A DNA stretch of 38,234 nucleotides from positions 1 through 38,234 of the IMG/VR virus record IMGVR_UViG_3300005563_000025. One strand, written 5' to 3'. The notes under the pieces were generated by a model, which saw only the letters and a list, made by a program, of their open reading frames with translations, did no database searches and was not told the DNA's origin. Source of the stretch: a virus. The position numbers and the translations under genes were made by a program. Of this stretch, positions 2,696 through 38,234 are shown piece by piece; the first letter of the stretch is position 1; each line of letters begins with the position of its first letter.

Positions 2696-3157
2696 ATGAA
2701 TAAAAAAGACGAACGTTACACCCCGCCGCGCATATTTGAGGCATTACAATGCCGCTTTGATTTGGACGCTGCCGCCCCGGTAGATAGGCGTTTTTGCCAT
2801 GTGCCGGCAGATCATTTTATTACCGAACAATCTTTGCAAACGCAATGGAATGGTTTTGTTTGGCTCAACCCGCCTTACAGCGGCAATAAAACGCTGTGGC
2901 TCGATAAGCTATATGCACATGGCAATGGTATCGCCTTAATGCCGGATCGCACCAGCGCCCCTTGGTGGCCATTGGCTGCCCGGCAGGCGCATCTGATTTT
3001 ATTAGTTACCGGCAAAATAAAATTTATTAACTGGGACGGTTCCATTGACAAGGCACCAAACAACGGATCTACGTTATTTGCTTTTGGTAGCCAGGCGGTC
3101 AATGCATTAATAATGGCCGAACGAAACGGCCTTGGACCCACTTTCAAAAAACTTTAA
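2696..3157 (+). CDS. Phage N6-adenine DNA methyltransferase (Dam family)
   Basis: A 153-residue protein of the small phage Dam type (PF05869-like). FDLDAAA at residues 21-27 and the catalytic NPPY at 58-61 are clearly visible, followed by LWLDKLYAHGNGIALMPDRTSAPWW and a hydrophobic ILLVTGKIKFI strand. The family transfers a methyl group from S-adenosylmethionine to adenine N6 in DNA. In phages it usually protects the genome against host restriction. It is followed 32 bases later by a cytosine methyltransferase, giving a two-enzyme modification block inside the early operon. Length is normal for the family. Confidence 0.9.
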   Translation: MNKKDERYTPPRIFEALQCRFDLDAAAPVDRRFCHVPADHFITEQSLQTQWNGFVWLNPPYSGNKTLWLDKLYAHGNGIALMPDRTSAPWWPLAARQAHLILLVTGKIKFINWDGSIDKAPNNGSTLFAFGSQAVNALIMAERNGLGPTFKKL

Positions 3158-3189: not shown

Positions 3190-3918
3190 ATGATTAAAGA
3201 TTCAGGACATAAGACCCAAGAGCGGCCCTTAAAGGTGCTCAATTTGTATGCCGGCATCGGCGGCAATCGAAAGCTGTGGGATAATGTGGAGGTTACCGCA
3301 GTGGAATTAAATCCTGCGATCGCCGGTATTTACGGGGACCTTTACCCGGGGGATACTATAATAATTGGGGACGCGCATCAATACCTGATCAATCACTTTT
3401 CCGAGTTCGATTTCATTTGGACTTCCCCGCCGTGTCCCACTCACAGTAAAATGCAGTTGTTAAACCATTCCATGGGTGCCAGCAAGCCCAAATATCCCGA
3501 CATGAAGCTGTACCAGGAGATTATTTTTTTGAAGCATTATTTTAAAGGGCAATGGATTGTGGAAAACGTACGCAGTTATTATGAGCCTTTAATTGCTCCA
3601 CAGCTCGCCGGCCGGCATTATTTCTGGGCTAATTTCAAAATCACTGGTTTTCAAACCGATCACCTGCCGGTGATGGGCAAAACCGGATTAACTCAGGATA
3701 TGCGCATGAAAGCGGCCGGTTATCAAATTGATGATTGGCACGGATATAAGGGACGGAAGGACACGCTGTTTAAAAACTGTGTGCACTTTGACCTGGGCCG
3801 GCATATTTTGGACTGCGCCCAGGGAATTTTGGAGCGATCGAGCCGGAAGCTTTTAACCCTGGATTTTGACATTGAAAATTCCCCGGCTTCGCCGGGCAAG
3901 CAAACGGGGTGCCAGTGA
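3190..3918 (+). CDS. Short C5-cytosine DNA methyltransferase-like protein
   Basis: A 242-residue protein. The SAM-binding motif I is LYAGIGG (19-25), the acidic VELNP follows at 38-42, the catalytic motif IV is SPPCPTHS with Cys82, motif VI is ENV (125-127), and a motif VIII-like GRHYFWANF is at 141-149. It is shorter than classic C5 methyltransferases (usually over 300 residues) and I cannot see a full target-recognition domain or the usual C-terminal motifs IX and X. It may recognise DNA in a reduced way or act on a base other than plain cytosine. It probably works with the adjacent adenine methyltransferase against restriction. Confidence 0.8.
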   Translation: MIKDSGHKTQERPLKVLNLYAGIGGNRKLWDNVEVTAVELNPAIAGIYGDLYPGDTIIIGDAHQYLINHFSEFDFIWTSPPCPTHSKMQLLNHSMGASKPKYPDMKLYQEIIFLKHYFKGQWIVENVRSYYEPLIAPQLAGRHYFWANFKITGFQTDHLPVMGKTGLTQDMRMKAAGYQIDDWHGYKGRKDTLFKNCVHFDLGRHILDCAQGILERSSRKLLTLDFDIENSPASPGKQTGCQ

Positions 3919-4360: not shown

Positions 4361-4728
4361 AAGCAGAAGAATTGAGAATCGGGAATTTGATAATAGCTGA
4401 CGGCGAAGAAACGCAGGTGTATGCGTTATACGAGTATGATGAAAGGGGCATTAACGGTGTCGGCGAGCATTATGAGGCTGGGCAATATACCTACCCTGTG
4501 TGTGAGCCCATTCCCCTAACCGAAGAATGGCTGCTTAGGTTTGGGTTTGCAAAGAACTACGGCGAGTTCACAAAAGGAAATTTAATGCTTGATTGCGAGT
4601 ATACCGATAAAGGAGAATACGTCGTCAAATATGGCAAAGCTTATATTGAGGCTGACATAAAATATGTCCACCATCTACAGAACCTTTATTTTGCCTTAAC
4701 AGGAGATGAATTAACAATTAAAAAATAG
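4357..4728 (+). CDS. Conserved phage protein of unknown function
   Basis: A 123-residue soluble protein. It starts KAEELRIGNLI and has IPLTEEWLLRFGF in the middle and YVHHLQNLYFALTGDEL at the C-terminus, a pattern I recognise as a common Bacteroidetes phage and prophage protein without known role. Its ATG overlaps the previous stop. It is part of the early accessory block. Confidence 0.7.
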   Translation: MKAEELRIGNLIIADGEETQVYALYEYDERGINGVGEHYEAGQYTYPVCEPIPLTEEWLLRFGFAKNYGEFTKGNLMLDCEYTDKGEYVVKYGKAYIEADIKYVHHLQNLYFALTGDELTIKK

Positions 4729-4732
4729 AAAC

Positions 4733-5128
4733 ATGGAAGCATTATTAGCATTACTTTTTGCTACTACAGTAGCAACGTTCGTCCTTATAGGACTTAATTC
4801 AAAGGCAATTGATCGGCTGGAGATTAAACTAAACAAGTCGAAATATGAGCTAGACGTTGAAATTGCTAACACGCGTCATGACCTCAAGGGTGAAGTAAGA
4901 GAACTTCGCGATAGGATTAGTAAGTTGGAATATCCACCGAAATTTAAGATAGGTGACCAGATTGGCCCTTATATCGTTTCATCTATAGAGTTCTTTAAAG
5001 GTGGCTGCTTTTATGAGTGGAATTACTATGGAGTTAAAGAAGGTGGCGGCCCGGTTTATTTAAACTCCATAATAGAATTTAACGATAAGCGTGAGAAAAG
5101 TAAAGAGAACATTAAACGCAGAAAATGA
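4733..5128 (+). CDS. Membrane-anchored coiled-coil protein
   Basis: A 131-residue protein. Residues 2-21 (EALLALLFATTVATFVLIGL) form an N-terminal membrane segment, residues about 27-66 look like a charged coiled coil, and the C-terminal half has a KFKIGDQIGPYIVSSIEFFKG beta-rich segment. Function unknown. It overlaps the next small membrane gene by ATGA, so two membrane proteins are made together. Confidence 0.6.
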   Translation: MEALLALLFATTVATFVLIGLNSKAIDRLEIKLNKSKYELDVEIANTRHDLKGEVRELRDRISKLEYPPKFKIGDQIGPYIVSSIEFFKGGCFYEWNYYGVKEGGGPVYLNSIIEFNDKREKSKENIKRRK

Positions 5129-5298
5129 AAAAAATATTAGGTTGGGGGATTATATCTGTCACGATTGTACTCGCTGTTTGTATGTGGGTTGACATTATAA
5201 TCAAAAATGGATGGATGGTAATGGTTCCTTTGTTATGCATATTCGTAGTAGCATTCATTCTGTTACGTATAGTGATTTGGTGTTTTACTGAAAAATGA
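5125..5298 (+). CDS. 57-residue membrane protein
   Basis: This short gene fills what would otherwise be a gap. ATG at 5125 overlaps the previous stop and its own TGA (5296-5298) overlaps the ATG of the next gene at 5295, both by ATGA. The predicted protein has two hydrophobic segments (IISVTIVLAVCMWVDIII and MVPLLCIFVVAFILLRIVIW). It is probably an inner-membrane protein of unknown role. Confidence 0.6.
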   Translation: MKKILGWGIISVTIVLAVCMWVDIIIKNGWMVMVPLLCIFVVAFILLRIVIWCFTEK

Positions 5299-5720
5299 GC
5301 GCTGAGGAGATAAACGACATAACCAACCAGGTGGTAGCTCGCATCAAGGAAAAATACTTCCTGGTAGAGAAAACCCCTGACCTTTCGGCTAACTTCACTG
5401 CAAGGGATTCGTTTATTGAGATCGTTATACTTGAGGTTTGCAAGCATTTTGGGATAACAAAGGACCAGCTTTTAAGCTCAAAGAATGGTAAACACTTAGA
5501 ATGTGGATGGAGCGGTCCGGAGATCAAGGCCATAATAACAATAATTTGCCGGGATATTTCTAAGGAAACAATATCTTTTTATGTCCTCGGAAAAGCTCTA
5601 AAAAGGACCCATGCGACTATTATTTACGACGAAAGAAGGGGTAGGGACCTTATTGAAACAAACCTCGGCTACCGTCAGCATTATCAGCAAATCCTTTTAG
5701 TTATAAATTTTGGTAAATAA
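5295..5720 (+). CDS. DnaA C-terminal-like helix-turn-helix protein
   Basis: A 141-residue protein with a segment resembling the DNA-binding C-terminal domain of DnaA: EIVILEVCKHFGITKDQLLS (about residues 42-61), then AIITIICRDISKETISFYVLGKALKRTHATIIY and a trailing helix. There is no AAA+ ATPase part. Such stand-alone domains occur in Bacteroidetes phages and may bind origin-like sites or compete with host DnaA. It is the last gene of the rightward early operon and its 3' end overlaps the 3' end of a leftward gene by 24 bases. Confidence 0.6.
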   Translation: MSAEEINDITNQVVARIKEKYFLVEKTPDLSANFTARDSFIEIVILEVCKHFGITKDQLLSSKNGKHLECGWSGPEIKAIITIICRDISKETISFYVLGKALKRTHATIIYDERRGRDLIETNLGYRQHYQQILLVINFGK

Positions 5721-6158
5721 ATCCCATGTCCCGCGTTGTTTATACTCGAACTCCCCAACCGGCTGGGGACCACCGGCAAACGACAAAGAGGCATAGGCTT
5801 TTCGAGGCTGATCGCTATCTATGACAGTGGTGTTTCCTACTGTGTGCGTACAGGTGCAATACTCAAGGCCTGGGTTATAGATCAGGGTAAGGGAATCCTT
5901 AGTACTGATCGTAAAGGTGTAACTAATTCCTTGTGGAACCTGTTGAACCAGAAGCGTGTTTCCGTTTGTTTTAAGAGTAACCTTGCCCTGCTGTTTAATC
6001 TGCCCTATTGGAATGGTGTCGGTTAGAATATTGAGGTTAACCGTATAATTGTAAATGGTAACCGGCGCTGTTGGTTGGGCCGGATAAGTCGTCGCACCTT
6101 TCTTGCTTTCCTTATGGCAAGCAGAAAGGATCATGCAAAGTAAAATCAGTTTTTTCAT
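5697..6158 (-). CDS. Exported lipoprotein, unknown function
   Basis: A 153-residue protein. Its N-terminus, MKKLILLCMILSACHKES, has a lipobox (L-S-A-C) with Cys14 as the lipidation site, so it should be processed by signal peptidase II and anchored to a membrane. The mature part is beta-rich, with a CTCTHTVG cluster near residue 100. It is encoded opposite to the genes on both sides, second in a two-gene unit with a secreted protein. This arrangement fits a moron expressed from the prophage that alters the host surface or blocks superinfection, but that is inference. Confidence 0.7.
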   Translation of the reverse strand: MKKLILLCMILSACHKESKKGATTYPAQPTAPVTIYNYTVNLNILTDTIPIGQIKQQGKVTLKTNGNTLLVQQVPQGISYTFTISTKDSLTLIYNPGLEYCTCTHTVGNTTVIDSDQPRKAYASLSFAGGPQPVGEFEYKQRGTWDLFTKIYN

Positions 6159-6583
6159 CTTATCCTTTTTAAAATCCAGTGGTAATAAACCTTACTATTC
6201 TCGGTAGTTTCATAGGTGCTAACAAGCTCCCAACCTCTGCTGCTCATGGAATTTAAAGCCCCAACCATTGAGTTAAAAGATATTGAATAAACAGATTTAG
6301 CCGGCTTGCCCATCTGAGTCTTCTTTAAAATATACCGGCCTTTCTCGTCAGATCTTACTTCCTGGCCCTCATAAGTAGCCTGGTTGGTCTTAATATAGAA
6401 TTTCTCAAATCCCACCTTAGGCATTAAAATAGTGGTATCGTTTCTATTCTTCATAACCCCCCCCGTGTCCATAACTACGACTATCATTCCCGAACTATCT
6501 CGAGAGCCGATCAACTCACAATATTTATTGGTTTGAGCCTTTGCCTGGCTAATTAAAAGCAGAAATAAGATTAGTTTTTTCAT
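6155..6583 (-). CDS. Secreted protein, unknown function
   Basis: A 142-residue protein with a signal peptide (KKLILFLLLISQAKAQ, cleavage probably after AKA). The mature domain contains a GQEVRSDEKGRYILKK segment that closely resembles one in the late-operon protein at 24737-25024, then a SMVGALNSMSSRGWELVSTYE segment. It is the first gene of a leftward pair; the downstream lipoprotein overlaps it by ATGA. A TATATTTG box lies upstream on the minus strand at 6634-6627. Confidence 0.7.
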   Translation of the reverse strand: MKKLILFLLLISQAKAQTNKYCELIGSRDSSGMIVVVMDTGGVMKNRNDTTILMPKVGFEKFYIKTNQATYEGQEVRSDEKGRYILKKTQMGKPAKSVYSISFNSMVGALNSMSSRGWELVSTYETTENSKVYYHWILKRIR

Positions 6584-6626
6584 CCGTCTATGGTAAAAGG
6601 TTTCACAGAAGTATTCGGGGCCAAAG

Positions 6627-6634
6627 CAAATATA
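6627..6634 (-). promoter_or_regulatory. Candidate -7 box (TATATTTG) for leftward moron
   Basis: On the minus strand the sequence reads TATATTTG, which fits the Bacteroidetes -7 consensus TAnnTTTG. It is 44 bases upstream of the ATG at 6583. I do not see a convincing TTTG at -33. Confidence 0.45.
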
Positions 6635-6639
6635 GGAAT

Positions 6640-6647
6640 TAACTTTG
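6640..6647 (+). promoter_or_regulatory. Candidate -7 box (TAACTTTG) for the late operon head
   Basis: TAACTTTG fits TAnnTTTG and lies 13 bases before the ATG of the sigma-like gene at 6661, so a transcript would have only a few leader bases. It sits back-to-back with the leftward box at 6627-6634, making a 77-bp divergent promoter region. No clear -33 element is present, so activation by another factor is possible. Confidence 0.45.
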
Positions 6648-6660
6648 AAACACGGACAAG

Positions 6661-7152
6661 ATGCAGATAATCAACGAACATATTTTGGCCAATGAAAAGG
6701 CCTATAGGGATATGTGTCGCAGTTGCTATAAGGGAAGGTATTTAGCCGATGATCTATTTAGTGAGTTTTACCTTAAGTTCATTGCGGTTTCCGATCAAAA
6801 GCTCGCCAAATGGCCTAATTTAAAAGCCTTGGGGTATTGGATAATCAAAGACTTGTTCTTAAAAAGAAATCGCAATGGTTCGCCATTAAAAGAGTTCGCC
6901 TACAAGGACCCTGATAAATACACCCCCGAAGAACCAGAAAGCAAGGAACATATCTACCAAGCCCTTGAAACTGCAATAGCCGTTAAACTATCCACCCCTC
7001 ACGACTTTTTGGAAACGGCTATATTAGTTCAATCACAAACCGAATCACTCAGGACCATCCAAAAGAAAACCGGCATCGATCGGTCAGCCCTAGGGAAGTA
7101 TCAAAAGAAAGCCAAAGAAGACCTTAAAAAATTTATTCAAGCCTACGTATGA
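6661..7152 (+). CDS. Sigma-70-like transcription factor, candidate late regulator
   Basis: A 163-residue protein. The N-terminal part (YRDMCRSCYKGRYLADDLFSEFYLKFI) resembles sigma region 2, and the C-terminal part (ESLRTIQKKTGIDRSALGKYQKKAKEDLKKFI) resembles the helix-turn-helix of region 4. The middle carries a variable acidic linker. It is the first gene of the late operon, directly upstream of packaging genes, where a late transcription activator is expected. It could equally be a DNA-binding regulator that does not bind core polymerase. Confidence 0.6.
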   Translation: MQIINEHILANEKAYRDMCRSCYKGRYLADDLFSEFYLKFIAVSDQKLAKWPNLKALGYWIIKDLFLKRNRNGSPLKEFAYKDPDKYTPEEPESKEHIYQALETAIAVKLSTPHDFLETAILVQSQTESLRTIQKKTGIDRSALGKYQKKAKEDLKKFIQAYV

Positions 7153-7394
7153 CACAAGAACAAATCCAATTCATAACCGCCAACGAAATTCATTTCGGCC
7201 TGGTATTAGACCACGGCCAGAAATTCCAGCAAGGGCACGACATTACAAAGCGGGTCCTTGAGATCTTCACAAGCCTAACAGGGGAAACCGCTGACTGTTG
7301 TGATGATTGTATCAAGGAAGCCTACCAAAAAGTATGGACGGAGTATCAACTTAACCAAAACAAACCCAATGGCAAACGAGAAAAAAGCGCCTAA
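7149..7394 (+). CDS. Small protein, unknown function
   Basis: An 81-residue protein. A CCDDC cluster lies near residue 50 (TADCCDDCIKEAYQKVWTEY), which could bind a metal. Its ATG overlaps the stop of the sigma-like gene and its 3' end overlaps the next gene by 26 bases. No family recognised. Confidence 0.55.
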   Translation: MTQEQIQFITANEIHFGLVLDHGQKFQQGHDITKRVLEIFTSLTGETADCCDDCIKEAYQKVWTEYQLNQNKPNGKREKSA

Positions 7395-7629
7395 TCCTAA
7401 AGTTACCCCCGAGCAGCTCATGGCTCTTGTGGAAAGAATGCAGGAACTAAAGTCTGAAAACGAAACCTTAAAAGCCCAGCTTAACAAAACCCGGCTACCG
7501 GACAAAATGCTACCCGATGAATATAACTGGTGTATTGAAAGATTAAGGGCAATTCGGCTCACGTTTAACAATCTGGAAGAAGCCCCTGAGATGGTTGAAA
7601 TTCCAAAGTCACCGATAATTTTACCGTAA
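7369..7629 (+). CDS. Small coiled-coil protein before terminase
   Basis: An 86-residue protein started at ATG 7369, rather than at a further upstream alternative codon at 7300 that would lie deep in the preceding gene. TPEQLMALVERMQELKSENETLKAQLNK looks like a coiled coil, followed by a second helical part. Its last base overlaps the ATG of terS. It may be a packaging accessory protein, by position only. Confidence 0.55.
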   Translation: MANEKKAPNPKVTPEQLMALVERMQELKSENETLKAQLNKTRLPDKMLPDEYNWCIERLRAIRLTFNNLEEAPEMVEIPKSPIILP

Positions 7630-8060
7630 TGTCAGCACCAAAAGATAACCAATTCTGGAAACTCAGGGCAAAGAACGGAAGGAACAAGATATTTGAAACC
7701 CCCCAACTGCTTTGGGAAGCCTGCTGTGAATACTTTGAGGCAACCGACAAAAGGAAGTGGATTAAAACGGAGTTCAATGGCAAAGACGCAATAGAGTGCC
7801 ATGTTCCAACCGAAACACCTTATACCTGGACTGGGCTTTATTTGTTCTTGGACATCTCGCATCAAACTTGGTGTGATTATGAAAAGCGAGAAGATTTTAT
7901 TGAAACTTCCACGCGGGTAAGGCATATAATATACACCCAGAAGTTCGAGGGAGCCGCTGTAGGTGCTTTTAATGCGAACATAATAGCCAGGGACCTTGGG
8001 CTAACAGAACGCAGCAGCGTGGAGATAAAAGAGCAACCTTTATTACCGGACGCAGAATGA
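7629..8060 (+). CDS. terS: Terminase small subunit
   Basis: A 143-residue protein resembling the gp3-type DNA-packaging small subunit of Bacteroidetes and Gram-positive phages. It has LLWEACCEYFEATDKRKW near the start, a helix-turn-helix region around YTWTGLYLFLDISHQTWCDYEKR, and the typical C-terminal GAFNANIIARDLGLTERS. It should bind the packaging start site and load the large subunit encoded at 8592. It overlaps the next gene by ATGA. Confidence 0.8.
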   Translation: MSAPKDNQFWKLRAKNGRNKIFETPQLLWEACCEYFEATDKRKWIKTEFNGKDAIECHVPTETPYTWTGLYLFLDISHQTWCDYEKREDFIETSTRVRHIIYTQKFEGAAVGAFNANIIARDLGLTERSSVEIKEQPLLPDAE

Positions 8061-8404
8061 AAAAGAAGCTCCCAATTAAAAAGCCTAGTTTAGACGAACA
8101 AGGAGGCATATCGTCTATTGCATTTATTTCAAAAGAGGACATGCTTACAGGGTTCCCGGAGTTTATTGAATACAATGGCGAGCAATCTAAAGGTTCTATC
8201 GCACCATTTCAGCCATCAATTACTCTCAGGCCTGAAACAAGGCCTTACTGGGAACAGTTAGGTTTTAAATCAGCGGCTGATATGTACAAGGATGCTCACA
8301 TGCATGCACTTACAGCCAATGGCTGGTATTGTTTCACCTGCGGTTGCAGCATGGAAAAATGCGATCTGGCCACCGGTGAAACAAAGGCTACCACTCATAT
8401 TTAA
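8057..8404 (+). CDS. Hypothetical protein with C-terminal Cys cluster
   Basis: A 115-residue protein between the terminase subunits. The N-terminal half is of low conservation; the C-terminus has WYCFTCGCSMEKCD, a tight group of four cysteines that could hold zinc. No family recognised. Position suggests a packaging-associated role, but nothing in the sequence proves it. Confidence 0.55.
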   Translation: MKKKLPIKKPSLDEQGGISSIAFISKEDMLTGFPEFIEYNGEQSKGSIAPFQPSITLRPETRPYWEQLGFKSAADMYKDAHMHALTANGWYCFTCGCSMEKCDLATGETKATTHI

Positions 8405-8415
8405 CATTTGAAGAT

Positions 8416-8616
8416 ATGCAAGAAAAAAAGGCATGGATATGGCACCAAAAATTCGGAGCTGACGAGGCTCGCTGTGTTAACTCATACTTCAATATAAGCC
8501 ACTCCCCGGAAGAACAACCGCTATTTATTTCGTCATTTACCGGTAAAGGTCCATTTACAAGGGATGAGCCTAAGAAACAGATTGGTTTTCAATGTTCTCC
8601 GTCACCACAGCAGTAA
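8416..8616 (+). CDS. Small hypothetical protein upstream of terL
   Basis: A 66-residue protein whose last 25 bases overlap the start of terL. It has WIWHQKFGADEARCVNSYFN and a proline-rich tail. No family recognised. Confidence 0.45.
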   Translation: MQEKKAWIWHQKFGADEARCVNSYFNISHSPEEQPLFISSFTGKGPFTRDEPKKQIGFQCSPSPQQ

Positions 8617-9788
8617 AGAAGATAAGAGCTGTTAAGGCCCGAAAAAAGATCATCCAAGGCTCAAGCTCCGCCGGAAAGACAATTGCCATTCTTATTCTGC
8701 TAATTGACAAGTGTATTAAAAACCCAGGCCTTGAGGTATCTGTTATTTCTGAATCCATACCCCATTTAAAGAAGGGGGCAATGAAGGACTTTCTAAAGAT
8801 CATGCAGCAGACCGGACGATTTAACCCGGTTAACTGGAACGCAACAGATCGAAAGTACACCTTTAGTTCAAATGCCACCGCCAGGTCTTATATTGAATTC
8901 TTTAGCCCTGAATCAGTATTGGGCTCAAGGCGCAACATCCTATACATTAACGAGGCTAACAACATTCTTTACGCCGATTACCACCAGTTAGCCATAAGGA
9001 CCAGCGACGAGATCTATGTCGATTTTAACCCTGCTTCTGAGTTCTGGGCACACACCGAGGTAGCAGTAGAAGAAAATGCCGAGCTTATAATCCTAAACTA
9101 CCTCGACAACGAAGGAAGACCAAAAAACGTTGATGAGGAGTTTAAGATAGCCAGAGAAAAAGCAGCCAAGGAAAAAGCTCAGGGGCTTCCAATAACCTCT
9201 TACTGGCAGAATTGGGTTCGGGTTTATGTCGAAGGGTTAACCGGTAACCTACAAGGGGTCGTGTTCAATAATTGGGAGCAGGTGCTGGAGGTTCCAGAAG
9301 GGGCTACGTTCATAGCCACCGGGCAGGATTTTGGGTTTACAAATGACCCTAGCGCCGCTGTAGACGTTTACAAGCAGGATGGTTATTTGATACTTGACGA
9401 ACGGTTATATTCTCCGGGCCTGCTTAATTCTGAGATTATTGCTAAATACCGGGAAATGGGGTTTAGTCAAAGGCGGGATATAGTTGCAGACAGCGCAGAG
9501 CCAAAAAGCATAGAAGAGATCAGGAGAGCCGGGTTTAACGTTAGAGGCGCTTTAAAGGGGGCAGATTCGGTAAAGGCTTCAATCGACAAACTACAGGAGT
9601 ATAAAATCAAGGTAACCGCCAGGTCTGTAAACCTGATTAAAGAACTAAGGGGGTACCGTTGGAAGGTAGACAAAGCTGGTAAATCGGAAAACGAACCTGT
9701 TGATTTTATGAACCACGCCATTGACGCGGTGAGATATGTGGCCTTAAATCACTTAATGACCAAGGCAAAAAGACACATCCGCACCTAG
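8592..9788 (+). CDS. terL: Terminase large subunit
   Basis: A 398-residue packaging motor. The Walker A motif is QGSSSAGKT (22-30), the Walker B region is ILYINEAN (116-123), and the C-terminal RNase H-like nuclease shows DFGFTNDP with Asp246, VADSAEP with Asp300, and VDFMNHAIDAVRYV with Asp371 and Asp378. It pumps DNA into the prohead and cuts the concatemer. Length is normal. The strong similarity of the layout to PBSX-type terminases gives the family. It is followed, unusually, by tail genes rather than by portal. Confidence 0.93.
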   Translation: MFSVTTAVKKIRAVKARKKIIQGSSSAGKTIAILILLIDKCIKNPGLEVSVISESIPHLKKGAMKDFLKIMQQTGRFNPVNWNATDRKYTFSSNATARSYIEFFSPESVLGSRRNILYINEANNILYADYHQLAIRTSDEIYVDFNPASEFWAHTEVAVEENAELIILNYLDNEGRPKNVDEEFKIAREKAAKEKAQGLPITSYWQNWVRVYVEGLTGNLQGVVFNNWEQVLEVPEGATFIATGQDFGFTNDPSAAVDVYKQDGYLILDERLYSPGLLNSEIIAKYREMGFSQRRDIVADSAEPKSIEEIRRAGFNVRGALKGADSVKASIDKLQEYKIKVTARSVNLIKELRGYRWKVDKAGKSENEPVDFMNHAIDAVRYVALNHLMTKAKRHIRT

Positions 9789-28690: not shown

Positions 28691-28930
28691 CTAAAGCTGC
28701 TCTGCTTTAAATATAATGTTTATCCCCTTTTTATCTGCCATTTTTTCAAAGCATAGCGGGCATATTACCCCAGCTTCACCACCGTTTACTAGATTAAAAA
28801 GTTTGTTTTCAGCAAACCATGTTGGATTTTTTCTGCCGCAAGACTGGCATTTTTTATCCCCGTCCGAAGGCTTCCAATTTTTATGTACTTTTTTTGCATT
28901 CTCAGCAGCTTCCTGTAGTTGGTCTTTCAT
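28691..28930 (-). CDS. Small zinc-ribbon-like protein
   Basis: A 79-residue protein with CQSC (Cys28 and Cys31) and CPLC (Cys57 and Cys60), a spacing typical of a structural zinc ribbon. Role unknown. Before insertion of the IS1595-type element it would have been directly downstream of the gene at 31293-31643. Confidence 0.55.
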   Translation of the reverse strand: MKDQLQEAAENAKKVHKNWKPSDGDKKCQSCGRKNPTWFAENKLFNLVNGGEAGVICPLCFEKMADKKGINIIFKAEQL

Positions 28931-28956: not shown

Positions 28957-28979
28957 GGTAACTATATACTTATTGATAC
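28957..28979 (+). repeat. Left inverted repeat of IS1595-type element
   Basis: Twenty-three bases that are the exact reverse complement of 31275-31297. It lies 44 bases beyond the stop codon of the PP-loop gene. Confidence 0.9.
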
Positions 28980-29023
28980 TAAGCCCATATTTTTCCTTAA
29001 TACAGGCTTTTTTGTTAATTTTT

Positions 29024-30025
29024 TCATTCACATATACCGTAAAAACTCATACAGCTATGGTTTCCGTTCGGTTCTTCAAAAATATCATTCTGAGCCTCGT
29101 CGCCCTGAACATACTTAACCACATCATCAATGGTCGGATATTTTGAAACTTTACCTGTTTTTTTACTTACCGATGTTTTACTGCAAAACCTTTCAGGTAT
29201 TTTGCCAACTGTAAAAATGGTATGCCCAGTTTCTTTTTCAAACTCTGATATTTCTTTTATCCGTTCAGGGAACCTGTTAGCTATTTGTTTTATTTCCGAT
29301 AATTTACACATTATGCAGGGGAAGCATCCTACCCTCCCCATACCCATATAGTAAAGCGGGTTTGGCTTCTGTCCTGCCTGAATAATATAATCAATTGTTT
29401 CTTGCGCTGACCAGTTAAAACAAGGTCTTACCACATCATCCGACCATTTACTTCTCCATTCTAACACTTCTTTTTTACGGTAAGTATGATACTTGTAATC
29501 CTCTTTTCCTTTTTCCAAACGGTCTTTAGCCTTTTTTAGTTTCTTTCTTTGGCGTTCAGTCAAATTAACTTTTGCACCCAATTGAGAAACTATAATTGAA
29601 TTGGACATATAGGGCGTATAATAGTATTTGAAATAAGAGCATTGTTCTGACATTTTAGCCCTCGAATCACTTTCATCTGAACGAATCCCCTGAATGATTA
29701 TAAGGTGTTCGTTATGGCTTAAAACATAGTCAATCATTGGCTTGGTTTTTAGTTCTTCTGTGCAAAATCTTGCACCAGCGGAAGGGAACCGCTTTTTGTG
29801 TTTAACCAAATCAATCATTCCGTTTTGATAGGCATTGTTTTTCAAAATCACATTTTTCACGCCCATCTTTTCACAAATTTCTAATTCGTGTTTGTAGGTA
29901 ACGGGACTTTCCCATTTTGTATCACAAAAAACCGCTTCTATTTTATCTACTCCGTATTTTTTAACAGCCCAAATTAAAGAAGCCTGACTGTCCTTTCCTG
30001 CGGAAAATGCTACTAATACCTTCAT
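29024..30025 (-). CDS. PAPS-reductase-like PP-loop protein (transposon cargo)
   Basis: A 333-residue protein of the phosphoadenosine phosphosulfate reductase/DndC-like superfamily. The PP-loop is SAGKDS (8-13), with FCTEELK (87-93), GIRSDES (113-119), RPCFNWS (200-206), and a Cys-rich GCFPCIMC (233-240) that could bind iron-sulfur. CMSFYGIC lies at the C-terminus. Such proteins activate substrates with ATP; relatives include sulfate reduction enzymes and the DNA phosphorothioation enzyme DndC. No DndD or DndE is nearby. It is inside the IS1595-type element, downstream of the transposase and coupled to the small gene before it by ATGA overlap. Confidence 0.75.
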   Translation of the reverse strand: MKVLVAFSAGKDSQASLIWAVKKYGVDKIEAVFCDTKWESPVTYKHELEICEKMGVKNVILKNNAYQNGMIDLVKHKKRFPSAGARFCTEELKTKPMIDYVLSHNEHLIIIQGIRSDESDSRAKMSEQCSYFKYYYTPYMSNSIIVSQLGAKVNLTERQRKKLKKAKDRLEKGKEDYKYHTYRKKEVLEWRSKWSDDVVRPCFNWSAQETIDYIIQAGQKPNPLYYMGMGRVGCFPCIMCKLSEIKQIANRFPERIKEISEFEKETGHTIFTVGKIPERFCSKTSVSKKTGKVSKYPTIDDVVKYVQGDEAQNDIFEEPNGNHSCMSFYGICE

Positions 30026-30261
30026 TTTACAATAACTGTTAGGGCATCGTTAAAATCCACTCCAATAATCCACTCCAAATCCCCGTACAATTCTTTTAGA
30101 ATTAGCTTTAAACGGATTATCTCCGCATCGGTGAACCGAGTGCTATGTTTTGGGTTTAGCTTGTTACAAAAGGTTCCTAATGGCATAGTCATTTTAAATG
30201 CCAATAGACCCTTGTTTAGTTTCCATTTTTCTATTACCTCTTGAAGTGATAAGTTGCTCAT
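30022..30261 (-). CDS. Small HTH-like protein (transposon cargo)
   Basis: A 79-residue protein with a Cro-like layout (LAFKMTMPLGTFCNKLNP, then FTDAEIIRLKLILKEL). It could regulate the element or the adjacent PP-loop gene. It starts inside the transposase gene (68-base overlap) and overlaps the PP-loop gene by ATGA, so all three are translated from one message. Confidence 0.5.
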   Translation of the reverse strand: MSNLSLQEVIEKWKLNKGLLAFKMTMPLGTFCNKLNPKHSTRFTDAEIIRLKLILKELYGDLEWIIGVDFNDALTVIVK

Positions 30262-31165
30262 AAGTTAAGTGTGTTGCTATATTGTTTAACATTAAATCGA
30301 AGCGGTCTGCTTCTGAAAAATTACGGCTGTTGTAACGAAATACAAATTCATCAATGTACTTCTGTAAATGTTTGTTACTCATTGAGTGGTAAATACCAAC
30401 CGTGCCACGTTTAAGTAATGACCAAAAGCCCTCTAAAGTGTTTGTATGGCTATTTCCGCTTACATACTCACCCTCATTGTGTTTTACTACTCCGTGTTTA
30501 AAAGCGGCAGCTAATCCGTTGTAACCCCACCATTCGTCGGTATGAATTGTAGAACCAAAAGCAATATTTTTACAGATGTATGATTTTAAATTGAAGCCTG
30601 TTGTATCAGGAACCATCTTAGCTCTTAGTTCGCCACCACGCTCAATAATTCCCGCTACTGGGCTTTTAGTTTTTACCGACCTACCTTGTGTTCCTTCGGT
30701 GCGTTTAGATTTGTGTTTGTTTTTTTCCTGACCACCCATAAAGGTTTCATCAGCTTCACAAACACCTGTTAATTTTTCGGTTCCTGTATTTAAGCCCAGC
30801 GAAGTGCGAACACGGTGCAATAAAAACCAAGCGGTTTTTTGTGTTACTCCTAAATCCCTGTGTAATTGTAAAGATGAAATACCTTTTTTATGAGAAGTAA
30901 TAAGGTAGATGGCTGCAAACCATTTCTGTAAAGGGATTTTGCTATCCTCGAAAATTGTACCAACACGAACAGAATAAATGCGCTCACATTTAGCGCACTT
31001 GTAACGCTCTTTACATCTGTAAACCTTGTCGTGTCCGCAATCGCTATAAGCACATTTTAACTGCCCGTTCCAACGGATAGTTTCTAAATAATCCTTACAG
31101 ATTTTTTCGTCTTTAAAATAAGCCATCAGGCTCATTAAGTTGGTGAATTTTTGTAGAGTTACCAT
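30194..31165 (-). CDS. IS1595-family transposase
   Basis: A 323-residue protein. A zinc ribbon at residues 38-60 (C38, C43, C57, C60) is followed by a helix-turn-helix-like YLITSHKKGISSLQLHRDLG. Catalytic residues are visible as D139 (CEADETFMGG), D210 (HTDEWWGY), and N242/E245 in SHTNTLEGFWSLLKRG. The HLQKYIDEFVFRYNSR end is typical of the family. It should cut and join the 23-bp inverted repeats. The C-terminal 20 residues overlap the next gene. Confidence 0.9.
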   Translation of the reverse strand: MVTLQKFTNLMSLMAYFKDEKICKDYLETIRWNGQLKCAYSDCGHDKVYRCKERYKCAKCERIYSVRVGTIFEDSKIPLQKWFAAIYLITSHKKGISSLQLHRDLGVTQKTAWFLLHRVRTSLGLNTGTEKLTGVCEADETFMGGQEKNKHKSKRTEGTQGRSVKTKSPVAGIIERGGELRAKMVPDTTGFNLKSYICKNIAFGSTIHTDEWWGYNGLAAAFKHGVVKHNEGEYVSGNSHTNTLEGFWSLLKRGTVGIYHSMSNKHLQKYIDEFVFRYNSRNFSEADRFDLMLNNIATHLTYEQLITSRGNRKMETKQGSIGI

Positions 31166-31183
31166 TGTTTTAATTTCTTACAT

Positions 31184-31191
31184 CAAAGATA
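31184..31191 (-). promoter_or_regulatory. Candidate -7 box (TATCTTTG) for the transposase
   Basis: On the minus strand TATCTTTG fits TAnnTTTG and is 19 bases upstream of the transposase ATG. A clear -33 TTTG is not seen. Confidence 0.4.
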
Positions 31192-31274
31192 AGTAAATAA
31201 TTGATATGAATTATTACTAATTTGTTAAAATATCGTATCTTATTGTAATTTAACACTTTTAACATATTTATCTT

Positions 31275-31297
31275 GTATCAATAAGTATATAGTTACC
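31275..31297 (-). repeat. Right inverted repeat of IS1595-type element
   Basis: Exact reverse complement of 28957-28979. The outermost five bases contain the stop codon of the phage gene at 31293-31643. Confidence 0.9.
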
Positions 31298-31643
31298 ATT
31301 TATTTTTATAGTGTTCAATTACCCTTTCCATTTCTATCTTGTACCAGTCGTCAAAAGACATGGTAGTTTGCTGCTGTTCGTGAACCCTGAATAAAACAGC
31401 CCTTAATCTTCTGCTCGGTGACTTTGCTTTGCTCGCGTCCTGAACCTTTTCTTCGTCGATCAAACTGGCTTCAATGTGTGTTATGTTCGTGTCAGACAGT
31501 AGAACTTTAATGTACTTTCCCCTGAGTTGGAACAAGTTACCTACTTGAGCAGGATCTATTTCCTGAGTGCCAAGACTGAGCTTTACAGTTCCGTCATTCC
31601 TGGTTCCGAGGTTTTCGAGTATAGCGCTAATTATTAGTTTCAT
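31293..31643 (-). CDS. Phage protein, 3' end altered by the IS element
   Basis: A 116-residue protein. SPSRRLRAVLFRVHEQQQ and SFDDWYKIEMERVIEHYK are a pattern I recall from a common Bacteroidetes phage protein near the ssDNA-annealing gene. The last Trp and the stop codon are read from the inverted repeat of the IS1595-type element. Rejoining the flanks without the element would end the protein in HYKNKFNL and place the next phage gene (28930) about 15 bases later, so only the last residues changed. Confidence 0.7.
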   Translation of the reverse strand: MKLIISAILENLGTRNDGTVKLSLGTQEIDPAQVGNLFQLRGKYIKVLLSDTNITHIEASLIDEEKVQDASKAKSPSRRLRAVLFRVHEQQQTTMSFDDWYKIEMERVIEHYKNKW

Positions 31644-37750: not shown

Positions 37751-38234
37751 AAAGCTAACCGCCGAACAAGAGGCGCAAATGATTTCTTTTCGGGAAGAAT
37801 GGAGGGCGCACGGCCTCTCAACAGAAGTAGTAGACGTTGAAAAAACAAAAGAATCGATAAGCGAAATGTACCGGCTAATCGGAAAGAAGCCGCCTGTTTT
37901 TATTTTCTGCCCATCCTTAGTGTTTGCGAAATTTCAAATCGCATACTCTATGGAGATATTGCCGCTTATCACAAAGGATAAAGAAAAGTTAGAGGACAAC
38001 CTGGGGGCCAACCTGTGGGCCAACCTGCGGGCCAACCTGGGGGACAACCTGCGGGCCAACCTGGGGGACAACCTGTGGGACAACCTGGGGGCCAACCTGT
38101 GGGCCAACCTGGGGGACAACCTGTGGGCCAACCTGGGGGCCAACCTGGGGGACAACCTGTGGGCCAACCTGCGGGCCAACCTGTGGGCCAACCTGGGGGA
38201 CAACCTGCGGGCCAACCTGGGGGACAACCTAAAA
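37737..38234 (+). CDS. DUF6745-type protein, 5' part (continues at 51-758)
   Basis: The first 166 codons of the gene that reads through the circular join. Residues 1-85 hold EEWRAHGLSTEVVDVEKTKE and GKKPPVFIFCPSL, which match my memory of the N-terminal part of DUF6745 proteins. From about residue 88 there are 19 full copies of the four-residue unit N-L-(G/W/R)-(A/D), then N-L-K and the join. In other family members the same place has a degenerate W/V-rich repeat region, so this array appears to be an expanded version. Start is ATG 37737 inside the end of ninG. Confidence 0.8.
   Translation, partial: MKKIEKLTAEQEAQMISFREEWRAHGLSTEVVDVEKTKESISEMYRLIGKKPPVFIFCPSLVFAKFQIAYSMEILPLITKDKEKLEDNLGANLWANLRANLGDNLRANLGDNLWDNLGANLWANLGDNLWANLGANLGDNLWANLRANLWANLGDNLRANLGDNLK
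37998..38225 (+). repeat. 12-bp tandem repeat array (19 units)
   Basis: Nineteen units of AACCTGnGGGmC, with n being G, T or C and m being C or A. No other position varies. It encodes N-L-(G/W/R)-(A/D). A partial 20th unit (AACCTAAAA) ends the array. The number of units in the assembly may not be exact because the contig was closed inside it. Confidence 0.95.

Follow-up and report, generated by a model that had tools for sequence, protein, structure and literature searches.

A 2341-bp element at positions 28957-31297 of a 38,234-bp IMG/VR virus record (the whole record is the window referred to below) encloses three overlapping genes, all on the minus strand, between perfect 23-bp inverted repeats. 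Taken as a whole, it probably represents a phage-associated branch of the IS1595 'transporter IS' that moves nucleic-acid-modification genes, here with an HTH accessory gene and a phage-derived PP-loop passenger that probably modifies DNA. The original prediction had proposed that a phage here harbours an IS1595-type transposon made up of these three genes. Both halves of that proposal are borne out: the transposase matches the family profiles, and the record is that of a virus, with genes for terminase, portal, endolysin, Erf annealing protein and integrase. That IS1595 elements can carry passenger genes, as the prediction had stated, agrees with PMC5704250 (citing Siguier 2009), which describes transporter IS (tIS) such as tISCpe8 and MTnSag1 (tISSag10).

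Anatomy of the element

The element and its two phage neighbours consist of the following features:

28691-28930, minus strand: neighbouring phage gene on the other side of the element, 79 aa
28957-28979: terminal inverted repeat, cargo side, GGTAACTATATACTTATTGATAC, complementary to the other end
29024-30025, minus strand: PP-loop (PAPS-reductase-like) passenger, 333 aa (PAPS_reduct 7e-23; phrog_424)
30022-30261, minus strand: CII-like HTH protein, 79 aa (weak sequence match and best fold match to phage 186 CII)
30194-31165, minus strand: IS1595-family DDE transposase, 323 aa, with an N-terminal zinc ribbon (profile matches)
31275-31297: terminal inverted repeat, transposase side, GTATCAATAAGTATATAGTTACC, 100% complementary to the other end; relatives share the end motif GGTAACTATATA
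31293-31643, minus strand: neighbouring phage gene, 116 aa, its stop codon inside the inverted repeat as read from the sequence

The two repeats are complementary at 23 of 23 positions, against a chance expectation of about 2e-5 such pairs in the whole window, and start with GG, as is typical of the IS1595 family. Within them, the PP-loop gene overlaps the HTH gene by 4 bp and the HTH gene overlaps the transposase gene by 68 bp, so that the predicted operon of overlapping genes between perfect repeats is indeed present. The GC content of the element is 35.8%, vs 42.6% in the rest of the window. Elsewhere in the window, the phage encodes two DNA methyltransferases of its own (2696-3157 and 3190-3918; phrog_111 and phrog_363), far from the element, and the contig ends in a low-complexity region (37934-38227) in which a reading frame of the RLARRLSPRLAHR type recurs and which is probably a tandem repeat.

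The transposase matches DDE_Tnp_IS1595 (PF12762) at 4e-42 and the NCBIfam IS1595 model (NF033547) at 9e-63, with 212 bits against a cut-off of 75. Its zinc-ribbon match (PF12760; 2e-5, 24.9 bits) lies slightly below the cut-off of 25.4. The catalytic residues are intact, with D139, D210, E245 and K252 invariant in nine relatives. Transposases that are at least 64% identical were found on viral contigs only; the nearest one in 84,980 species genomes is 49% identical, while those of plasmids reach about 45% and those of phage records 38%.

An 8-bp target duplication was looked for at the window copy and is absent, as the outer 8-mers (TAAATTAA and ATTTATTT) differ. We read this as a loss at one copy, with the family assignment resting on the transposase and the ends. 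That the 116-aa neighbour ends inside the repeat would fit a deletion next to the element, and this gene was possibly truncated by the insertion or by a later deletion. A search for an empty site found none: the 116-aa neighbour has no relatives in viral contigs except in the same phage, and none of the terminase relatives exceeds 55% identity. The exact 2341-bp unit was found elsewhere only in the same phage on another contig (L003). The expectation that the same bounded unit would recur with 8-bp duplications therefore holds for relatives of the element and fails for the exact unit.

The gene following the transposase had been called 'HTH-like', which fits its resemblance to phage 186 CII, weak by sequence and the best match by fold. 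A profile of this protein has no match in 396 Bacteroidota genomes, while the same profile does match virus records. Its last 12 residues (VDFNDALTVIVK) constitute a terminal motif shared with other proteins (see below) and are predicted to form a separate C-terminal helix in a low-confidence model. The gene had been counted among the cargo; it lies inside the element, but simple cargo it is not, since in the near clade it goes together with the transposase and its product bears a motif common to the wider family. It could simply be a repressor or activator. Free relatives of this gene occur in phages, and inverted repeats were searched for around those of L042, L150 and L153-L155 and not found. 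Phage L042 (7968-9849) contains two tandem HTH-enzyme pairs without a transposase, one with a divergent PP-loop protein and one with a 171-aa nuclease-like protein.

Exchange of cargo among related elements

Relatives were collected by transposase, HTH and end-sequence scans, and none by cargo. The related elements lie on viral contigs, with phage hallmark genes in their flanks (terminase, Mu-type portal, lysozyme, DnaB), though some contigs showed none. Perfect 8-bp duplications flank 13 of the 19 inspected relatives with matching ends (motif GGTAACTATATA). As in a transporter IS, the passenger of the window element lies inside the repeats, and relatives without the PP-loop gene have complete ends and duplications.

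Comparison of the elements shows that they exchange their passengers in the slot following the HTH stop codon. Nucleotide homology with L020 covers bases 1-1276 of the window element and ends right at this stop codon; past that point, L020 has a DNA methyltransferase. Homology with L019 covers bases 1-1140 and resumes for the last 94 bases (2248-2341), with a methyltransferase in between; on the cargo side, this homologous end region begins approximately at the PP-loop stop codon. In place of the PP-loop gene, L019 and L020 carry unrelated DNA methyltransferases of the N6/N4 type (PF01555). The L019 element (4374-8529) is situated between GroES-like and GroEL-like genes of its viral contig.

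Other relatives carry different modification genes in turn. L025, L026 and L045 encode helicase-methyltransferase fusions of 1132-1443 aa, and the more distant L067 and L170 encode a D12 methyltransferase with a PD-(D/E)XK nuclease, a complete restriction-modification pair. In the likewise more distant L194, an N4-type methyltransferase is paired with an MvaI/BcnI nuclease. IS1595-type ends also surround pairs of an N4-methyltransferase and a restriction-enzyme-like gene on the viral contigs of L195 and L231, as in L194; perfect 8-bp duplications are found in L195 and L231, not in L194, and the MvaI/BcnI family was shown for L194. Some elements (L023, L024) have no modification enzyme. Overall, modification enzymes make up 14 of 22 cargo ORFs vs 3 of 110 flanking ORFs (p=7e-11), or 11 of 19 cargo ORFs (p=9e-9) when RRP8-like methyltransferase fusions, whose domains could act on RNA, are left out; these ORFs come from a small sample of related elements, which limits their independence, and for the controls the scan used HMMs only.

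PP-loop genes recur as well. On the contig of L114, which also bears a phage portal gene, a second PP-loop gene lies between an inverted repeat and an IS1595 transposase whose start is present at the end of the contig. In L100 (2507-4959), matching ends without a duplication surround a methyltransferase, a replication-like gene and a third PP-loop gene, just before DnaB. Enclosing what look like native phage genes, L100 is a possible snapshot of cargo capture. L012 has an IS1595 transposase fragment (9152-9673) and, approximately 2.3 kb away on the opposite strand, a PP-loop gene native to the phage.

Some cassettes lack a transposase altogether and contain a single DNA methyltransferase: L104 (1454 bp, perfect ends and a duplication), L112 (893 bp, matching ends, no duplication) and L115 (604 bp, matching ends and a duplication). 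Transposase-free elements with cargo are known as mobile insertion cassettes (MICs), which these three resemble in having matching ends around one gene; unlike MICs, they have IS1595-type ends, lie on viral contigs and carry a DNA methyltransferase in all three cases. Compared with the tIS described in PMC5704250, the window element shares the IS1595 DDE transposase, the inverted repeats (about 25 bp in tIS), the duplications (in its relatives) and a passenger. In contrast to tIS with lincomycin resistance, it is phage-borne and carries a PP-loop enzyme and an HTH accessory gene, its relatives exchange DNA-modification genes, and the gene after the transposase bears the terminal motif.

The PP-loop passenger and its possible role

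The phrog_424 profile matches residues 1-332 of the PP-loop protein (1.4e-47), and the SxGxxS loop, C88, C234 and C237 are among the residues invariant across 14 PP-loop homologues. DndC has a three-cysteine cluster and a cysteine dyad (PMC10853773), the cluster being a [4Fe-4S] site; the three invariant cysteines of the PP-loop protein agree in number with such a cluster, with no dyad assigned. The prediction had likened the Cys clusters of the enzyme to those of 'DndC-type' proteins. This proved too specific, since the protein scores 19.9 bits on the NCBIfam equivalog model of DndC (TIGR03183; cut-off 290.4). The proposed comparison with CysH missed its cut-offs by similarly wide margins (21.7 bits vs 165.1 and 15.9 vs 254.2 for the cysH/PAPS reductase models), and both names were dropped. 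Among defence proteins, SspD/BrxP match better and best (6e-19 and 2e-15), as partial, modest profile matches. The predicted structure (pLDDT 83) has PAPS/APS reductases as its nearest solved folds at 14-17% identity, with QueC, LarE, TtuA and MnmA also among the matches. By sequence profile, the nearest solved chain is 21fy (4e-11), named PptA, on which we found no literature.

The gene most likely came from phages, because Bacteroidetes phages have native homologues of 44-55% identity that are not accompanied by a transposase. No native PP-loop gene, which would have spoken against a transposon passenger, was seen at the phage position of the element; the homologues are native elsewhere in Bacteroidetes phages. 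The protein thus resembles the PAPS-reductase-like morons of phrog_424, fitting their profile and being 43-45% identical to Bacteroides phage proteins. Those are fixed phage genes elsewhere, whereas this one is a transposon passenger.

Modification of DNA is the best reading of what the enzyme does, with its chemistry putative, because it resembles SspD/BrxP. In type 4 BREX, a PAPS-reductase-like protein stands in place of the methyltransferase (PMC12839542), and the main argument is that this transposon shows the same methyltransferase/PP-loop exchange, its PP-loop gene occupying the place otherwise held by a methyltransferase. The occurrence of methyltransferases in the same slot of the relatives lends independent support to the earlier suggestion that the cargo may modify DNA. 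Unlike SspD/BrxP systems (Ssp, type 4 BREX phosphorothioation), the element has no SspB/SspC, BrxC, PglZ or cysteine desulfurase, and only the transposase and the HTH gene stand alongside. The absence of a DndA/DndD/DndE or SspB/SspC partner from the element counts against this explanation, as known phosphorothioation requires several proteins, and so does the fact that we know of no proven function for phage PAPS-reductase homologues.

In this proposal, the transposase, the motif-bearing HTH accessory and the passenger form one overlapping operon between the 23-bp repeats. The transposase would move the unit, as the anatomy of the relatives (repeats and 8-bp duplications) shows for them and as we infer for the window copy. 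The HTH protein probably binds DNA, and its terminal helix may dock to or regulate the transposase. The exchangeable slot after the HTH stop codon, which usually holds a DNA methyltransferase, here holds a PP-loop enzyme, most likely captured from phages. This enzyme probably modifies DNA, most plausibly by activated sulfur or related adenylation chemistry, judging from its position and its SspD/BrxP likeness, and the modification may help the phage against host restriction.

Three other readings of the operon can be weighed against this one. That the PP-loop protein is a metabolic or tRNA-type enzyme (sulfate assimilation, thiolation or queuosine-like chemistry), carried by chance and not acting on DNA, would suit its closest solved folds, the PAPS/APS reductases, and the QueC, LarE, TtuA and MnmA matches, and PHROGs files the phrog_424 family as auxiliary metabolic. 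We consider it unlikely, given the CysH score (21.7 bits against 165) and the three separate PP-loop genes between such ends, beside or replacing DNA methyltransferases; moreover, the C-terminal ECGLH motif of CysH was not seen in the protein. Still less probable is a modification enzyme that serves the transposon by marking its ends or newly replicated DNA and thereby controlling transposition, much as Dam controls IS10 transposition. Most of the cargo does modify DNA, with translational coupling to the transposase possible, and in L067, L170 and L194 the motif-bearing first gene is the methyltransferase itself; yet the enzyme types are unrelated and interchangeable, and elements such as L023 and L024 have none, so no single mark is required. 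We find it very improbable that the PP-loop and HTH genes are native to the phage and became flanked by two solo ends or by an IS landing alongside. The missing target duplication would agree with this, as would the HTH-PP-loop pair of L042 without transposase or repeats and the L100 ends around apparent phage replication genes. Against it, the homology with L019 and L020 takes in the HTH gene as well as the ends of the element and is interrupted precisely at the cargo, and a tail motif like DFNDALxxIV is found in 12 of 12 transposon-borne HTH proteins vs one of seven free phage relatives. That exception is the L042 protein adjoining the PP-loop gene, which, given its transposon tail motif, may descend from an element.

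A terminal motif after IS1595 transposases

The 12-residue motif is found N- or C-terminally in unrelated proteins whose genes directly follow that of an IS1595 transposase. It takes the form F-x3-L-x2-[AGF]-[LIV], often followed by P, and its bearers fall into about eight unrelated families, including HTH proteins, D12 and N4 methyltransferases, RhuM, KilA-N, P63C and small proteins of 60-91 aa. On a Methylocystis rosea plasmid (L257, 3906-4088), a 60-aa ORF missing from the gene table of the record lies right after an IS1595 transposase. The motif is the sole recognisable feature of this ORF. A PSSM trained without the HTH proteins ranks the motif first in four of five of them, and mixed PSSMs, with families left out in turn, do so in 22 of 24 proteins. 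As the motif positions were picked by eye, the fair test is that on held-out loci, in which 6 of 27 first genes have the motif vs 1 of 300 control proteins (p=1e-6).

These sequence patterns suggest an undescribed transposase-linked accessory module, and we propose that accessory or cargo proteins may dock to the transposase through the motif. The motif may instead mark proteins for degradation, bind a regulator or have arisen as a by-product of repeated gene capture, which together is a serious possibility that falls somewhat short of even. A PSSM built from the C-terminal tails alone did not transfer to the N-terminal versions, as such readings would allow, while the spread over about eight unrelated families, the L257 ORF and the held-out enrichment speak against them. 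The docking proposal can be extended to an interchangeable accessory protein after the IS1595 transposase, in phages and bacteria alike, whose short terminal helix would tether DNA-binding or DNA-modifying domains to the transposase and, in phages, would spread modification genes, among them those of PP-loop enzymes producing a new or phosphorothioate-like DNA modification. In this full form the idea is tentative and rather doubtful.

The literature searched holds no description of a PP-loop passenger in IS1595, of transposase-free methyltransferase cassettes in phages or of the terminal motif, and nothing relevant was found on IS1595 with methyltransferase, RhuM or KilA-N cargo. That unrelated proteins beside IS1595 transposases share the motif suggests an accessory function in this widespread family of transposons. 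Solitary DNA methyltransferases and PAPS-reductase-like genes are frequent in phages, with no explanation so far for their mobility. The element family offers a concrete vehicle for such genes, including the transposase-free single-methyltransferase cassettes, and its members seem to carry DNA-modification genes from one virus to another. With methyltransferase and PP-loop genes swapped in a single slot, the function of phage PAPS-reductase homologues, a long-standing question, can be tested as DNA modification.
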